Shown here: one piece after another, positions 30,661 through 41,971 of the stretch | Layout of the letters: the number at the start of each line of letters is the position of its first letter | How positions within the stretch are numbered: the first letter of the stretch is position 1 | Virus record (IMG/VR): IMGVR_UViG_3300033182_000933 | Coordinates: 1-42,631 of that record | DNA from: a virus | DNA: 42,631 nt | Strand: one strand, 5' to 3' | The notes under the pieces: generated by a model | Seen by the model: the letters and a program-made list of their open reading frames with translations, nothing else | Told to the model about the DNA's origin: nothing | The model's database searches: none | Position numbers and translations under genes: made by a program

Positions 30661-30736
30661 GCCCTTGTAGCCCAACGGCAGAGGCAGTGGACTTAAAATC
30701 CATCCAGTGTGAGTTCAAATCTCACCAAGGGCACCA
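30661..30736 (+). tRNA. tRNA-Leu-like (TAA) with short variable loop
   Basis: Acceptor GCCCTTG / CAAGGGC, anticodon loop CTTAAAA (TAA), variable loop only 5 nt (CCAGT), T arm GTGAG-TTCAAAT-CTCAC, A73 and encoded CCA. A normal bacterial tRNA-Leu carries a long variable arm; this one does not. Confidence 0.88.
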
Positions 30737-30751
30737 AAAAAATAATGTTTA

Positions 30752-30828
30752 GCCCATGTATCCCAATTGGTAGAGGAGACGGTTTTAGATGCCGTACAGT
30801 GTAAGTTCGAGTCTTACCATGGGCACCA
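30752..30828 (+). tRNA. tRNA-Leu-like (TAG) with short variable loop
   Basis: Acceptor GCCCATG / CATGGGC, anticodon stem ACGGT / GCCGT around loop TTTAGAT (TAG), variable loop ACAGT, T arm GTAAG-TTCGAGT-CTTAC, A73, CCA. Same class I shape as its neighbour. Confidence 0.88.
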
Positions 30829-30881
30829 TTTCTTAAAAAAGATTAGAAGTAAAAGAATTCTGATTTGACTAGAGTATTTAC

Positions 30882-30957
30882 GGGGAATTAGCTCAGTTGG
30901 GAGAGCGTCTGCCTTACAAGCAGAATGTCGGCAGTTCAAACCTGTCATTCCCCACCA
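30882..30957 (+). tRNA. tRNA-Val (TAC)
   Basis: Acceptor GGGGAAT / ATTCCCC, D arm GCTCAGTTGGGAGAGC, anticodon stem TCTGC / GCAGA with loop CTTACAA, encoded CCA. Confidence 0.95.
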
Positions 30958-30963
30958 CATTGT

Positions 30964-31039
30964 GGGCTCGTAGCTCAGTTGGGAGAGCATCTGCCTTGCA
31001 CGCAGAGGGTCGCAGGTTCGACTCCTGTCGGGTCCACCA
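30964..31039 (+). tRNA. tRNA-Ala (TGC)
   Basis: Acceptor GGGCTCG / CGGGTCC, including the G3-U70 pair that AlaRS recognises; anticodon loop CTTGCAC; A73, CCA. Confidence 0.95.
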
Positions 31040-31048
31040 CCAATAAAT

Positions 31049-31122
31049 GCTTCCTTAGTTAAATGGTATAACGGGTGACTTGTAATCTCCAGTTGTTGGT
31101 TCGATTCCATCAGGAAGCTCCA
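31049..31122 (+). tRNA. tRNA-Thr (TGT)
   Basis: Acceptor GCTTCCT / AGGAAGC, anticodon loop CTTGTAA, T loop TTCGATT with one T-T mismatch in the T stem, discriminator T, CCA. Confidence 0.88.
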
Positions 31123-31339
31123 GACTATAAAGAGAGCCGTGCGGACTAGTCATCCGCTAGTAGGGGTCGGAATCCCCCTATGAATAGAAGTGGTTTGACA
31201 ACCCCAACAAAAGTGTCCCGATGGCAAGTTGCCCGTAGATTAGGCTGCGTAGTGACCTCTGTGGCGAGGCCCGTGCGTGGGATTTGGAGTTCTAGAATTC
31301 TGTGCCAGATTGCCGATCCTCAAGTCACACCTATTTTTC
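31123..31339 (+). other. Gene-free gap in tRNA cluster, probable structured RNA
   Basis: 217 nt with no convincing ORF; open frames here are shadows. Local hairpins include GCGGA-CTAGTCA-TCCGC (31141-31157, a 7-nt loop like an anticodon arm), TAGGGG / CCCCTA just after it, GGCAA / TTGCC near 31222-31233, and CCTC / GAGG near 31256-31269. A possible long-range pairing joins GGGTCGG (31154-31160) with CCGATCC (31313-31319). Could be a processed small RNA co-transcribed with the tRNAs, or decayed tRNAs. Confidence 0.4.
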
Positions 31340-31427
31340 GGAGAGATGGCCGAGTGGTTGATGGCGCTGCTCTTGAAAAGCAGAAAGTGTAACAGCTTCG
31401 GGGGTTCAAATCCCTCTCTCTCCGCCA
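31340..31427 (+). tRNA. tRNA-Ser (TGA)
   Basis: Class II tRNA: acceptor GGAGAGA / TCTCTCC, anticodon loop CTTGAAA, long variable arm (about AAGTGTAACAGCTTC), G73, CCA. Confidence 0.94.
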
Positions 31428-31429
31428 CT

Positions 31430-31506
31430 CGGGATATAGCACAGTTTGGTAGTGCGCCTGCTTTGGGAGCAGGAAGTCGCAGGTTCAAATCCTGCTATCC
31501 CGACCA
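31430..31506 (+). tRNA. tRNA-Pro (TGG)
   Basis: Acceptor CGGGATA / TATCCCG, anticodon stem CCTGC / GCAGG with loop TTTGGGA, A73, CCA. Confidence 0.94.
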
Positions 31507-31514
31507 AACACTAA

Positions 31515-31588
31515 GCGGAATTAGTTTAGTGGTAAAACGGAGCCTTGCCAAGGCTCAGTCACGAGTTCAACTCTCGTATTCCGCTCCA
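31515..31588 (+). tRNA. tRNA-Gly (GCC)
   Basis: Acceptor GCGGAAT / ATTCCGC, anticodon stem GAGCC / GGCTC with loop TTGCCAA, discriminator T, CCA. Confidence 0.94.
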
Positions 31589-31598
31589 ATCAAATTTT

Positions 31599-31670
31599 GC
31601 GTCTGTAACTCAATGGTAGAGGCCCTGCATTGTAGTCAGGGGGTTCTGGGTTCAAGTCCCAGCGGACGCA
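31599..31670 (+). tRNA. tRNA with irregular anticodon arm (probably Thr TGT)
   Basis: Acceptor GCGTCTG / CGGACGC and T arm CTGGG-TTCAAGT-CCCAG are good. The anticodon arm is CCTG / CAGG with a C-T mismatch next to loop ATTGTAG, giving anticodon TGT. CCA is not encoded (ACAAAA follows). Anticodon uncertain; possible second tRNA-Thr or a decaying gene. Confidence 0.7.
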
Positions 31671-31741
31671 CAAAAAAAAAGATTTTCTTTCGTTTCAGTA
31701 TCTTACTTCTAAATATCTCATTTTATTGACGATCTTTTTTG

Positions 31742-31801
31742 TTGTGTTTCTTGAACGGTCCCTGTATACTGTATTTGTGAGTGAGAGACAGGGTGTCTCT
31801 C
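31742..31801 (+). promoter_or_regulatory. Early-type promoter with GAGAGAC hairpin
   Basis: TTGTGT 31742, 17-bp spacer, TATACT 31765. Hairpin GAGAGAC (31783) / GTCTCTC (31795), loop AGGGT. A second small stem CCC-TTC-GGG precedes ATG 31827. Confidence 0.83.
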
Positions 31802-31826
31802 CGATAAAACCCCTTCGGGATTGAAG

Positions 31827-32009
31827 ATGGATAAAGAACTTGCCAAAGAGATGTTTGAACTCGCCAAATCCTACGTTCACGGCTTCGGCCACGAGGACTT
31901 CAAGGCTGAGGCCTCCAAAGGGAATGTCTCGTCCGATCTCTATTTCGTTGTAGAGTCACTTGGGTGGTCAAGAGCGGTTGACCAATACGTTGCCACAATC
32001 TCTAACTGA
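31827..32009 (+). CDS. Small unknown early protein
   Basis: 60 aa from ATG 31827 (an in-frame TTG at 31821 is less likely). MDKELAKEMFELAKSYVHGF then GHEDFKAEASKGNVSSDLYF: helical, with several His. No family recognised. Confidence 0.66.
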   Translation: MDKELAKEMFELAKSYVHGFGHEDFKAEASKGNVSSDLYFVVESLGWSRAVDQYVATISN

Positions 32010-32017
32010 GAATAGAT

Positions 32018-32335
32018 ATGAATATGGAATCAGCAATTCACGACTATCTTGATGCCATCTGTGACAATTATGCAAAGAGCATGGACAACCCTGACATGAT
32101 CAACCAATTTGAGTCCAGCATTCGGTTTGATGTTGGGAACAAGTATGTCAAGGTCATCACAGGTTCTTCTACGCATCAAGAGTCGGTTCATTCGTTTATT
32201 GTTCGTGAGGATGGACCTAAATTTAAGAAAGGGGATATTCTGAAAGCAGCCAGTTGGGCGTCACCCGCAAGGAATTTTGCTCGTGGAAACATCTTCAAAG
32301 ATGTAAGTAATGCATCAAACTGGACAGGTGCGTAA
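32018..32335 (+). CDS. Unknown early protein
   Basis: 105 aa (MNMESAIHDYLDAICDNYAK..., KKGDILKAASWASPARNFAR). The start follows ACTGAGAATAGAT, a relaxed leader-type block. The C-terminal half (FKKGDILKAASWASPARNFARGN) resembles a short motif seen in small phage proteins. tRNA-Asn follows 12 nt after the stop. Confidence 0.7.
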   Translation: MNMESAIHDYLDAICDNYAKSMDNPDMINQFESSIRFDVGNKYVKVITGSSTHQESVHSFIVREDGPKFKKGDILKAASWASPARNFARGNIFKDVSNASNWTGA

Positions 32336-32347
32336 GTAGGTTCATAC

Positions 32348-32423
32348 TCCTCGGTAGTTCAGTAGGTAGAACACTCGGCTGTTAACCGATATGTCGCTGG
32401 TTCAAATCCAGCCCGAGGAGCCA
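32348..32423 (+). tRNA. tRNA-Asn (GTT)
   Basis: Acceptor TCCTCGG / CCGAGGA, anticodon loop CTGTTAA, T arm GCTGG-TTCAAAT-CCAGC, G73, CCA. Confidence 0.94.
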
Positions 32424-32470
32424 GGATCGTATGAGGGTCATAACCATTTTTACCCCATACGGCATCTAGT

Positions 32471-32547
32471 GCGGGTGTAGCTCAGTTGGTTAGAGCAAGG
32501 TTCTTATAAAGCAGAGGTCGGGAGTTCAAGTCTCCCCACCCGCACCA
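32471..32547 (+). tRNA. tRNA-Ile (TAT), weak anticodon stem
   Basis: Acceptor GCGGGTG / CACCCGC, good D and T arms, A73, CCA. Anticodon loop CTTATAA reads AUA. The anticodon stem AGGTT / AGCAG has two mismatched outer pairs, so it may be functional but relaxed, or decaying. Confidence 0.82.
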
Positions 32548-39836: not shown

Positions 39837-40100
39837 ATGCCAACATACGATTATGTCTGCACAGAGTGTGGACATGAGTTTGAGGAGATGCTCCTCATTT
39901 CAAAACGTGAAGAACCTACTCAACAGCCGTGTTCAGAGTGTGGCAAAGTAACAGTCAAGATGAAAGTGGCTGTACCATATTTTGCTTACGATAACATTTC
40001 AACATCTAAGAGTCAGAAGAAACCTCCTAGTTGGATGACTGACAAACTCAAGACAATCAAAAAAGAACAACCCAAATCAACTATGAGTGTGCCTTTCTGA
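39837..40100 (+). CDS. FmdB-family zinc-ribbon protein
   Basis: 87 aa. MPTYDYVCTECGHEFEEMLL then QQPCSECGKVTVKMK is the FmdB/CxxC_CxxC_SSSS putative regulatory domain: MPxYxYxCxxCxxxFE, then CPxCG. The second half is basic and Pro/Ser-rich (KSQKKPPSWMTDKLKTIKKE). FmdB ribbons are common in T4-like marine phages beside nuclease genes. It overlaps the exonuclease start by 1 nt. Confidence 0.86.
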   Translation: MPTYDYVCTECGHEFEEMLLISKREEPTQQPCSECGKVTVKMKVAVPYFAYDNISTSKSQKKPPSWMTDKLKTIKKEQPKSTMSVPF

Positions 40101-40762
40101 TGAAAAAATTTAATCATGTACCCCTTGACTATTCAGAGGTTTCTGATAGACTATTAACTGAAAATATTGATGGGAAGAGATACTATGTCACTCCAGAAGG
40201 TAACAAGTATGTATCTATCACAAGTCTACTCTCCAACCTCTCCAAAGCTTCTATACTTGAGTGGCGAAAACGGGTTGGAGAAGCAGAGGCCAATAAAATC
40301 TCAACTAGAGCCTCAAGAAGAGGAACCAGCCTACATTCTATCTGTGAAGCGTATCTCCGAAACGAATCGGACATACTCAAAGGAAAGATGCCGCATGTAG
40401 TGGAGATGTTTGAATCAATTCGTTCTCTTGTTGAACGAATTGACAATATACATATGATTGAGGGTGCCTTGTGGTCTGACCATTTCGGTGTTGCTGGACG
40501 CACAGATGTAATTGCAGAGTTTGATGGAAGACTCTCAGTGATAGACTACAAGACATCCTCTCGTATCAAAACACGGAGTCATTGCGAATCATATTTTATG
40601 CAGGGTTCATTTTATGCTATTGCCTTTGAGGAAAGGACTGGTATTCCAGTAGATCAGATAGTGATTATCATGGCAGTGGAAAATGAGGAACCTATTCTAT
40701 TTATTGAGAAAAGAGATGACTGGGCAGATTCTCTAACTGAAGTAGTGAATAAATATAGATGA
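40100..40762 (+). CDS. PD-(D/E)XK exonuclease
   Basis: 220 aa. Core motif GVAGRTDVIAEFDGRLSVID followed by YKTS gives the D-(x)n-DxK site (Asp about 136, Asp about 149, Lys about 151). RRGTSLHSICEAYL near residue 74 is the upstream helix with His/Glu, and SYFMQGSFYAIAFEE the QxxxYA motif of RecB/Cas4-like exonucleases. Such genes are standard in cyanophage-like T4 relatives. It should process DNA ends in recombination or host DNA breakdown. Preceded by FmdB. Confidence 0.86.
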   Translation: MKKFNHVPLDYSEVSDRLLTENIDGKRYYVTPEGNKYVSITSLLSNLSKASILEWRKRVGEAEANKISTRASRRGTSLHSICEAYLRNESDILKGKMPHVVEMFESIRSLVERIDNIHMIEGALWSDHFGVAGRTDVIAEFDGRLSVIDYKTSSRIKTRSHCESYFMQGSFYAIAFEERTGIPVDQIVIIMAVENEEPILFIEKRDDWADSLTEVVNKYR

Positions 40763-40784: not shown

Positions 40785-40886
40785 ATGAATGAATGGTCCT
40801 TTTTTTATGTGTGGTGTTTTTTGGTGGCATCCTATATGTTTCTAGATGTGAGTCTAGATGCAATGATAAATTCTATAACAAGATAA
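40785..40886 (+). CDS. 33-aa membrane peptide
   Basis: MNEWSFFYVWCFLVASYMFL then DVSLDAMINSITR: one hydrophobic N-terminal span. I favour this frame over a longer alternative starting at 40793, because the next gene has its own ATG 2 nt after this stop. Confidence 0.45.
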   Translation: MNEWSFFYVWCFLVASYMFLDVSLDAMINSITR

Positions 40887-40888
40887 AT

Positions 40889-41146
40889 ATGTTTGGTAAA
40901 TTTTTAAATTGGCTTTCAAAAAAGTTTGAAGGTGATGGTAGAACGATTATTACTACAGCTCCCTCTAATTTGACTTTTGAAGATTTGGAGGAGACTGAAA
41001 AAAATTCTTATTCTGAAGAAGATCTTCGGAAACTGAAGAAAGATGATGTGTTTGAAATTGCAAAGAATGAGTTTGAACTTGATGTGAAGAAGAATACCTC
41101 AAAAAAAACTATGATTGAAATGCTACTTGAGGCACAAAGGTCATAG
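40889..41146 (+). CDS. Small protein with SAP-like C-terminal helix pair
   Basis: 85 aa (MFGKFLNWLSKKFEGDGRTI..., LRKLKKDDVFEIAKNEFELD then VKKNTSKKTMIEML). The end matches the LxxLxxxELxxxAxxxGIxxxxxxxKxxLIxxL pattern of SAP/Rho-N-type DNA-binding helices. A 5' extension of the frame to 40793 would add a hydrophobic segment; start therefore uncertain. Confidence 0.6.
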   Translation: MFGKFLNWLSKKFEGDGRTIITTAPSNLTFEDLEETEKNSYSEEDLRKLKKDDVFEIAKNEFELDVKKNTSKKTMIEMLLEAQRS

Positions 41147-41151
41147 TCTAT

Positions 41152-41288
41152 TCACTCTGACAAGATATTAGTCCTACGGCAATAGGGTCTTTGTGTGGCG
41201 GACTTAGTCGGCACAAGTTGATATCAAGCTGGTTTTGCCGAACTGGGAGTCCAGAGTGTATGTTTACATACCGTGGCTTTCAGAGTGA
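41152..41288 (+). ncRNA. Candidate structured RNA upstream of tmRNA, with competing helices
   Basis: No ORF. A 9-bp closing stem joins TCACTCTGA (41152-41160) to TCAGAGTGA (41280-41288). A second CAGAGTG copy at 41252-41258 can pair with the same 5' strand. Hairpin CCTA-CGGCAA-TAGG lies near 41174, TCGGCA (about 41209) pairs with TGCCGA (about 41236), and GGACT (about 41200) pairs with AGTCC (about 41248). The CGGCAA loop can instead pair with the same TTGCCG, as a pseudoknot. GTATG-TTTA-CATAC is at 41258-41271. It may be a regulatory RNA, or the 5' leader of the tmRNA precursor. Confidence 0.55.
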
Positions 41289-41350
41289 TACCTTAAATTT
41301 TCTTGATTTAGATACTTAAAAGAATTCATTTGATGACCTGAAAGGATAGT

Positions 41351-41590
41351 TACTTGTCACGAGGGGGCAGCACCCTCCACCTCCACCATAAACCCATTCA
41401 AGTGTGTGCTTATGATGGGGGTGAGATAGTTTCGGACAGGGACGAAAGTACCAGCGAGAATGGATAGGAGTGATGAACCTAATCATCAAATAAGTTAAAC
41501 GCAAACGACGTTGACTATACACCTGTTAGAGTAGCACTTGCTGCCTAATTAGGTCGGGGTTCGGGGACACCTTGTTATCAAAGTCCCCAC
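41351..41590 (+). ncRNA. ssrA: Circularly permuted two-piece tmRNA
   Basis: The acceptor piece comes first. P2 strand TACTTGTC is at 41351-41358, the T arm GAGGG-GGCAGCA-CCCTC at 41361-41377, the acceptor strand CACCTCC at 41378-41384, then A73 and CCA to 41388. After a 28-nt spacer the coding piece starts at GGGGGTG (41417-41423), giving a 7-bp acceptor with the G3-U70 alanine identity pair. GAC-GA-AAGTA (41441-41450) restores P2. The tag ORF GCA AAC GAC...TAA is at 41501-41548 and encodes ANDVDYTPVRVALAA, a ClpXP-type degron ending LAA. A final stem GGGGAC / GTCCCC (41563-41588) follows. The product rescues stalled ribosomes. Confidence 0.92.
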
Positions 41591-41611
41591 TTACAATCTA
41601 AAGGACAACCC

Positions 41612-41971
41612 GTGGAAGAACTTTTTACATCGTCTGACCTTATACTTGCGGCGATAATACTATTTTCCTCAATTTTCGTCTTCCTTTTCAATTTTCGGCA
41701 TGACAGTCTTGCAATAGGTGAGATTCACGATGAAGACGGTAATTTACGCTGGGGTTTGATCACATTGGACGTTTTCATTAACCTCGGTATGGCATTTACT
41801 GGTTACTTTTTTATCGTTGTTGTTTTTGCCTCTATACCCCAACTACAAGCACAGCAAGGATTTAAATATCCAGTTGCTTATCTATTTGCTTTGACATCAA
41901 ACGTAAGTATACCAATCGTATTGAAGTGGTTTCAGGCAGAGTTACAGAAACGAATCAAGAAGATAAAGTGA
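41612..41971 (+). CDS. Three-span membrane protein, GTG start
   Basis: 119 aa, GTG start with AAGGACAACCC upstream. Hydrophobic spans are LILAAIILFSSIFVFLF (about 10-26), VFINLGMAFTGYFFIVVVFA (about 55-74) and VAYLFALTSNVSIPIVLKWF (about 88-107), with a basic tail (QKRIKKIK). It could be a class I-type holin or a membrane partner of the CxxCH protein encoded next. Function inferred from topology only. Confidence 0.7.
   Translation: MEELFTSSDLILAAIILFSSIFVFLFNFRHDSLAIGEIHDEDGNLRWGLITLDVFINLGMAFTGYFFIVVVFASIPQLQAQQGFKYPVAYLFALTSNVSIPIVLKWFQAELQKRIKKIK

Follow-up and report, generated by a model that had tools for sequence, protein, structure and literature searches.

The window, which is the whole stretch of DNA analysed here, is a 42.6-kb linear virus record (IMGVR_UViG_3300033182_000933) and, like the other virus records used, a fragment of a genome. 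Judged from its genes, which include those for a primase, a class II ribonucleotide reductase, a thymidylate synthase, a RuvC-like resolvase, a PRPP synthetase and an exonuclease (phrog_298), the phage is T4-like. We confirmed that this marine phage carries, at 41328-41591 on the plus strand, a permuted two-piece gene of the alphaproteobacterial type for tmRNA, the bacterial RNA that frees stuck ribosomes and marks unfinished proteins for destruction. The initial annotation had proposed a permuted phage tmRNA, and the covariance models, the anatomy and the comparative evidence all bear it out. Its interval, 41351-41590, covers most of the gene but omits the first 23 or so nucleotides of the Rfam match. 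The features are as follows.

40100-40762, plus strand: exonuclease (phrog_298), the synteny anchor, which precedes the tmRNA in many relatives
41328-41388, plus strand: acceptor (3') piece, with the 3' strand of P2, the T arm with the loop GGCAGCA, CACCTCC and ACCA (RF04321 match, sequence reading and T-loop census)
41361-41365/41373-41377, plus strand: T arm GAGGG/CCCTC (sequence reading)
41366-41372, plus strand: T loop GGCAGCA (sequence reading)
41378-41384, plus strand: 3' strand of the acceptor, CACCTCC, followed by A41385 and by CCA at 41386-41388
41389-41416, plus strand: spacer between the pieces, 28 nt, without an ORF, presumably removed by tRNA-type processing (compared with relatives)
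41417-41591, plus strand: coding (5') piece, with GGGGGTG, the D-loop region, PK1, the tag and the downstream hairpin (RF01849 match; alpha_tmRNA model used to estimate the 3' end)
41417-41423, plus strand: 5' strand of the acceptor, GGGGGTG (sequence reading)
41465-41487, plus strand: PK1 pseudoknot, UAGG/CCUA and GAUGA/UCAUC (by eye; related sequences in L376 and L122)
41501-41548, plus strand: tag frame ANDVDYTPVRVALAA with resume codon GCA and stop codon TAA (reading; homologous tag ANNDDYTPAYVALAA in L376)
41551-41588, plus strand: hairpin GGGGAC/GTCCCC and possible pseudoknot AGGT/ACCT, 3' of the tag (RF01849 alignment and inspection; as in alpha_tmRNA)

As first proposed, the CCA-ending acceptor piece (41328-41388) is encoded upstream of the coding piece (41417-41591), and the two form a 7-bp acceptor stem. 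All seven pairs can be read from the sequence (G-C, G-C, G-U, G-C, G-C, U-A and G-C), the third being G3-U70. The resume codon and the LAA degron end of the initial annotation were also found, the latter as an ALAA-like end: UUAAAC stands before the GCA at 41501, the codons GCA AAC GAC GTT GAC TAT ACA CCT GTT AGA GTA GCA CTT GCT GCC TAA give ANDVDYTPVRVALAA, and the stop codon lies at 41546-41548. The tag is 15 aa long; tags in the phage clade are mostly of 15-17 residues, so that a long tag is typical there. In PK1, UAGG (41465-41468) pairs by eye with CCUA (41478-41481) and GAUGA (41472-41476) with UCAUC (41483-41487), and the arms of the GGGGAC/GTCCCC hairpin lie at 41563-41568 and 41583-41588. 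P2 is the least certain part of the structure. By eye, GACAGG (41435-41440) pairs with CUUGUC (41353-41358) over 6 bp with one G-U; several pairs of the Rfam register are non-standard, and another helix was favoured when helices were searched automatically. At the position of the conserved GGAC before the T arm the window has GTCAC.

The whole window was searched with all Rfam families using cmscan. RF04321 (tmRNA_permuted) scored 82.4 bits against a cut-off of 47 (E = 2e-14), with a match that begins at 41328. RF01849 (alpha_tmRNA), the model with which the initial annotation had proposed to check its reading, scored 67.2 bits against a cut-off of 50 (E = 2.3e-16), with a match that reaches 41591. 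The RF04321 model is specific, since only Caulobacter passed its cut-off among 14 control genomes. The RF04321 score of the window gene was below those of the alphaproteobacterial chromosomal genes tested (mostly 110-166 bits) and fell among those of its phage relatives (about 69-98 bits). ARAGORN called 12 tRNAs in the window and did not call the tmRNA gene at 41328-41591. It also missed the clear permuted tmRNAs of L376, L372, L379, L387 and L121, while in most of the 23 related loci tried it independently called a permuted tmRNA at the same place, with homologous ..ALAA tags. Because several clear permuted tmRNAs, the window's included, escape ARAGORN, phage counts based on it are too low; the published phage census, for example, misses genes like this one.

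The stems were compared in 22 phage genes downstream of a phrog_298-type exonuclease, the window and 21 others, with the sequences anchored on the resume site and the CCA rather than on pairing. G3-U70 was kept in all 22. Acceptor pairs 4-7 and T-arm pairs 1-4 varied, and nearly all the variants were standard pairs. Pair 5 of the acceptor is C-G, G-C or A-U, pair 6 is U-A, C-G or G-C, and T-arm pairs 1-3 come in three or four types each. The non-standard exceptions were L131 and L379, in both of which the script misplaced the start of the coding piece, and L372 (T-arm register). L383 and L384 show G4-U69 versus A4-U69 next to the constant G3-U70. Since the acceptor and T-arm pairs change compensatorily while G3-U70 stays, the window-type tmRNA gene is, as judged from these substitutions, under selection. 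The tag frame, the resume codon and the ..ALAA-like end are maintained throughout the phage clade. The exonuclease adjoins the tmRNA just upstream in many relatives, and in the exonuclease tree the window stands beside tmRNA-bearing phages. It is confirmed that the T4-like phages of the sea include a sizeable group with a ribosome-rescue RNA of its own under selection.

Phage-borne two-piece tmRNA is already known as a kind. The window gene is not the first, since the two-piece ssrA genes of the phages Melnitz and Mosig were published in 2022, and the same paper's tally of two-piece structures in phage genomes stands at 53, which includes 50 marine or aquatic ones (PMC9004378). In Rfam the permuted form is now covered by one model, and the tmRNA database holds 79 phage sequences of all forms (PMC11915505). 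A simple anatomy pattern matched at least 119 stretches of viral contigs. With the Caulobacter-type genes of RF04321 and RF01849 the window shares the order of the pieces, the G3-U70 acceptor, the encoded CCA, the GGC-type T loop, PK1, the GCA resume codon, the ..ALAA tag and the downstream hairpin; it differs in being phage-borne, in its 15-aa tag, its D-loop AUAGUUUCGGAC, the GTCAC before the T arm and its lower score. Like Pelagibacter phage Mosig EXVC030M (MT647606) and Methylophilales phage Melnitz (PMC9004378), the phage of the window is a marine, T4-like virus with a two-piece tmRNA. Mosig, an isolate, has the same synteny (PD-(D/E)XK nuclease, small gene, ssrA), whereas its T loop is TGCAACT and its spacer is 44 nt. 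In Melnitz a glutamine riboswitch was reported in the ssrA region (PMC9004378); our Rfam search of the window tmRNA region found no riboswitch family, the glutamine riboswitch included. Among the phage and alphaproteobacterial genes compared, the top alignment score to the window was that of L376 (IMGVR_UViG_3300030107_005598), which has a GGC-type T loop (GGCAGAA), the homologous tag, a short spacer and the tmRNA directly after the same exonuclease. Unlike the window, L376 has a spacer of 15 nt and lacks the 117-aa gene and the noncoding stretch of about 180 nt that precede the tmRNA in the window.

The T loop GGCAGCA had been taken for a departure from the usual form. In a sample of chromosomal genes gathered through RF04321 and a pattern scan, it turned out to follow the alphaproteobacterial norm: 27 of the 28 distinct genes have a GGC-type loop (GGCGGTA in 20, GGCAGTA in 4, GGCAGCA in 2 and GGCAGTG in 1), the other loop being TGCGACT, and the GGC type is therefore a lineage mark. 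Viral T loops are mostly of the TKCRAYT type, with the GGC type in the minority. Among the loops tallied, those with T in the first position have A in the fifth, and those with G have G. The window loop fits the GGC type (GGCRGYA) and the alphaproteobacterial lineage, and the acceptor and T-loop string of the window is also present in Alphaproteobacteria MAGs. The tmRNA had been called a strong host pointer. It does point to a host, but only moderately, because Melnitz, whose host belongs to the Methylophilales, has an ssrA of the alpha type (PMC9004378). The closest counterparts of the window's class II ribonucleotide reductase (62-65%) are in phages that infect SAR116, rhizobia and roseobacters, an affinity in keeping with an alphaproteobacterial host.

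We put the probability at about 0.88 that at this locus the phage has a functional ssrA gene of the two-piece type seen in alphaproteobacteria, which serves trans-translation together with host factors. This reading is based on the anatomy, the family score, the selection on structure and tag across the clade, and the lack of smpB in the window. No SmpB gene was found in this genome fragment, so that host SmpB is presumed. Transcription, cleavage, charging, tagging and the benefit to the phage we infer from the family. A single precursor would be transcribed from the gene, host RNase P would cut before G41417 and tRNA 3'-processing after the CCA at 41388, and the 28-nt spacer would be released. 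The two pieces would be held paired by the 7-bp acceptor stem and P2, and host AlaRS would charge the RNA through G3-U70. Host SmpB and EF-Tu would then bring the charged tmRNA to ribosomes stalled on broken mRNA, where translation would restart at the GCA at 41501 and append ANDVDYTPVRVALAA, whose ..ALAA end would direct the tagged product to ClpXP. The phage would benefit in that ribosomes are kept free during infection.

A processed and charged tmRNA might instead interfere with host trans-translation or retune it, for example through a tag with different proteolysis. Host tmRNA is inhibited in E. coli that expresses the DS6A phage tmRNA, which has no tag frame (PMC11915505), and most of the 28 alphaproteobacterial tags examined have a shorter middle than the DYTPVRV of the window tag. 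However, a decoy would not need a tag frame, a resume codon and an ..ALAA-like end, all of which occur clade-wide, and we regard such a dominant-negative role as unlikely. Less probable still is a functionless, decaying copy of a host gene left by past recombination. The model score below those of chromosomal genes and the failure of ARAGORN to find the gene would suit a relic, but all 12 acceptor and T-arm pairs, the tag and PK1 are intact, the place after the exonuclease is constant, and compensatory changes across relatives are not expected of a neutral relic. There was also no integrase among the window ORFs annotated with PHROGs, which are a part of all its ORFs; on this and on the conserved paired stems we rejected a tRNA or integration-site relic. 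That the locus resembles tmRNA by chance, or is some other structured RNA, is refuted by the family scores (E = 2e-14 and 2.3e-16) and by homologues in synteny; beyond the uncertain P2 nothing speaks for it.

The relatives of the window tmRNA gene have a further property, which belongs to its kin, because the 28-nt spacer of the window has no ORF. In the anatomy scan, the spacers of the 130 distinct genes among the matches listed were 9-47 nt long in alphaproteobacterial genes and 11-235 nt in viral ones. A spacer-blind scan, which relied solely on the clade's resume/tag motif, together with loci from the other scans gave at least 90 distinct tmRNA genes. Spacer counts were taken from the spacer-blind and exonuclease-based scans, with one ORF-biased scan left out, and they are not counts of independent events, the tmRNA genes of the phage clade being mutually related. 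Among the matches listed, spacers of at least 70 nt, often 96-205 nt, were found in 74 of 90 distinct tmRNA genes, and 68 of these 74 spacers are occupied over at least three quarters of their length by an ORF that begins with ATG. The start codon most often lies 9 nt beyond the CCA. Upstream of 55 of the 68 ORFs there is a string that resembles a Shine-Dalgarno sequence by a loose definition, and 39 of the 68 end with their stop codon one base short of G1, where the coding piece begins and RNase P is expected to cut. ORFs so long were uncommon in dinucleotide shuffles (p 0.003-0.05 for each of 18 ORF-bearing spacers from the exonuclease-based scans). Examples are found at L125:5927-6055, L380, L453 and L379.

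Two unrelated small-protein families occupy the same spacer slot. By hydrophobicity, one membrane span is possible in 56 of the 68 ORFs (e.g. MEKKLMWLAIMILLGLCLTYATLYIGYDFR), and the main type consists of predicted single-span membrane proteins of 26-32 residues. The second family is basic, about 50-58 residues long, with the C-terminal end ..HFNKDWDADLWD (..DWDADLWD). In the largest family (22 distinct sequences) the median dN/dS was 0.35, and changes were commonest at third codon positions and rarest at second. The ORF statistics and the dN/dS argue for a coding reading of the spacers, and the spacer ORFs in related marine phages are, on these sequence comparisons, under purifying selection. 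No convincing family for the nested microproteins was found in Pfam and PHROGs, and tblastn found none of them in cultured phages. We found no report of ORFs in tmRNA spacers in the open-access literature, and a protein gene inside a tmRNA spacer, a place in a split RNA gene so far seen as waste, appears to be new. L262, with a GGCAGTA T loop, has a 235-nt spacer with a 69-aa ORF that has a C-terminal membrane segment and is unlike the other two families.

In the exonuclease tree the sister of the window is a group of 29 rows, the majority of which carry the label of an ORF-bearing spacer. Close relatives differ in what the spacer holds, with membrane-type, basic-type and empty ones intermingled, as expected if the slot gains and loses cargo. 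The tmRNA of this clade is probably a compound gene, with a spacer slot that holds a translated microprotein gene, so that both a rescue RNA and a very small mRNA would come from one precursor; tmRNA maturation may be linked to the translation of the spacer. Maturation in these relatives could free the spacer as a minimal mRNA that ends one base after the stop codon, or the ORF could be translated from the precursor. Ribosomes on the spacer ORF might, speculatively, delay or aid cutting by RNase P.

Several other features surround the window gene. A 117-aa protein with an N-terminal hydrophobic segment is encoded between the exonuclease and the tmRNA (40793-41146); no relatives of it were found in IMG/VR, and the closest phages examined have no such gene at this position. 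The noncoding region that follows (41147-41300) has long inverted arms, CACTCTGA...TCAGAGTG, and a folding energy z of -1.87. The stretch of about 180 nt before the tmRNA gave no match in a low-stringency Rfam search, its exact 23-mer was absent from IMG/VR, and nhmmer with this stretch in 201 loci matched only itself. Just 3' of the tmRNA, at 41612-41971, a 119-aa protein with a GTG start and several hydrophobic segments is encoded, for which no family was found. Eleven of the 12 tRNA genes of the window are clustered at 30661-32547, two tRNA-Thr(TGT) genes among them.
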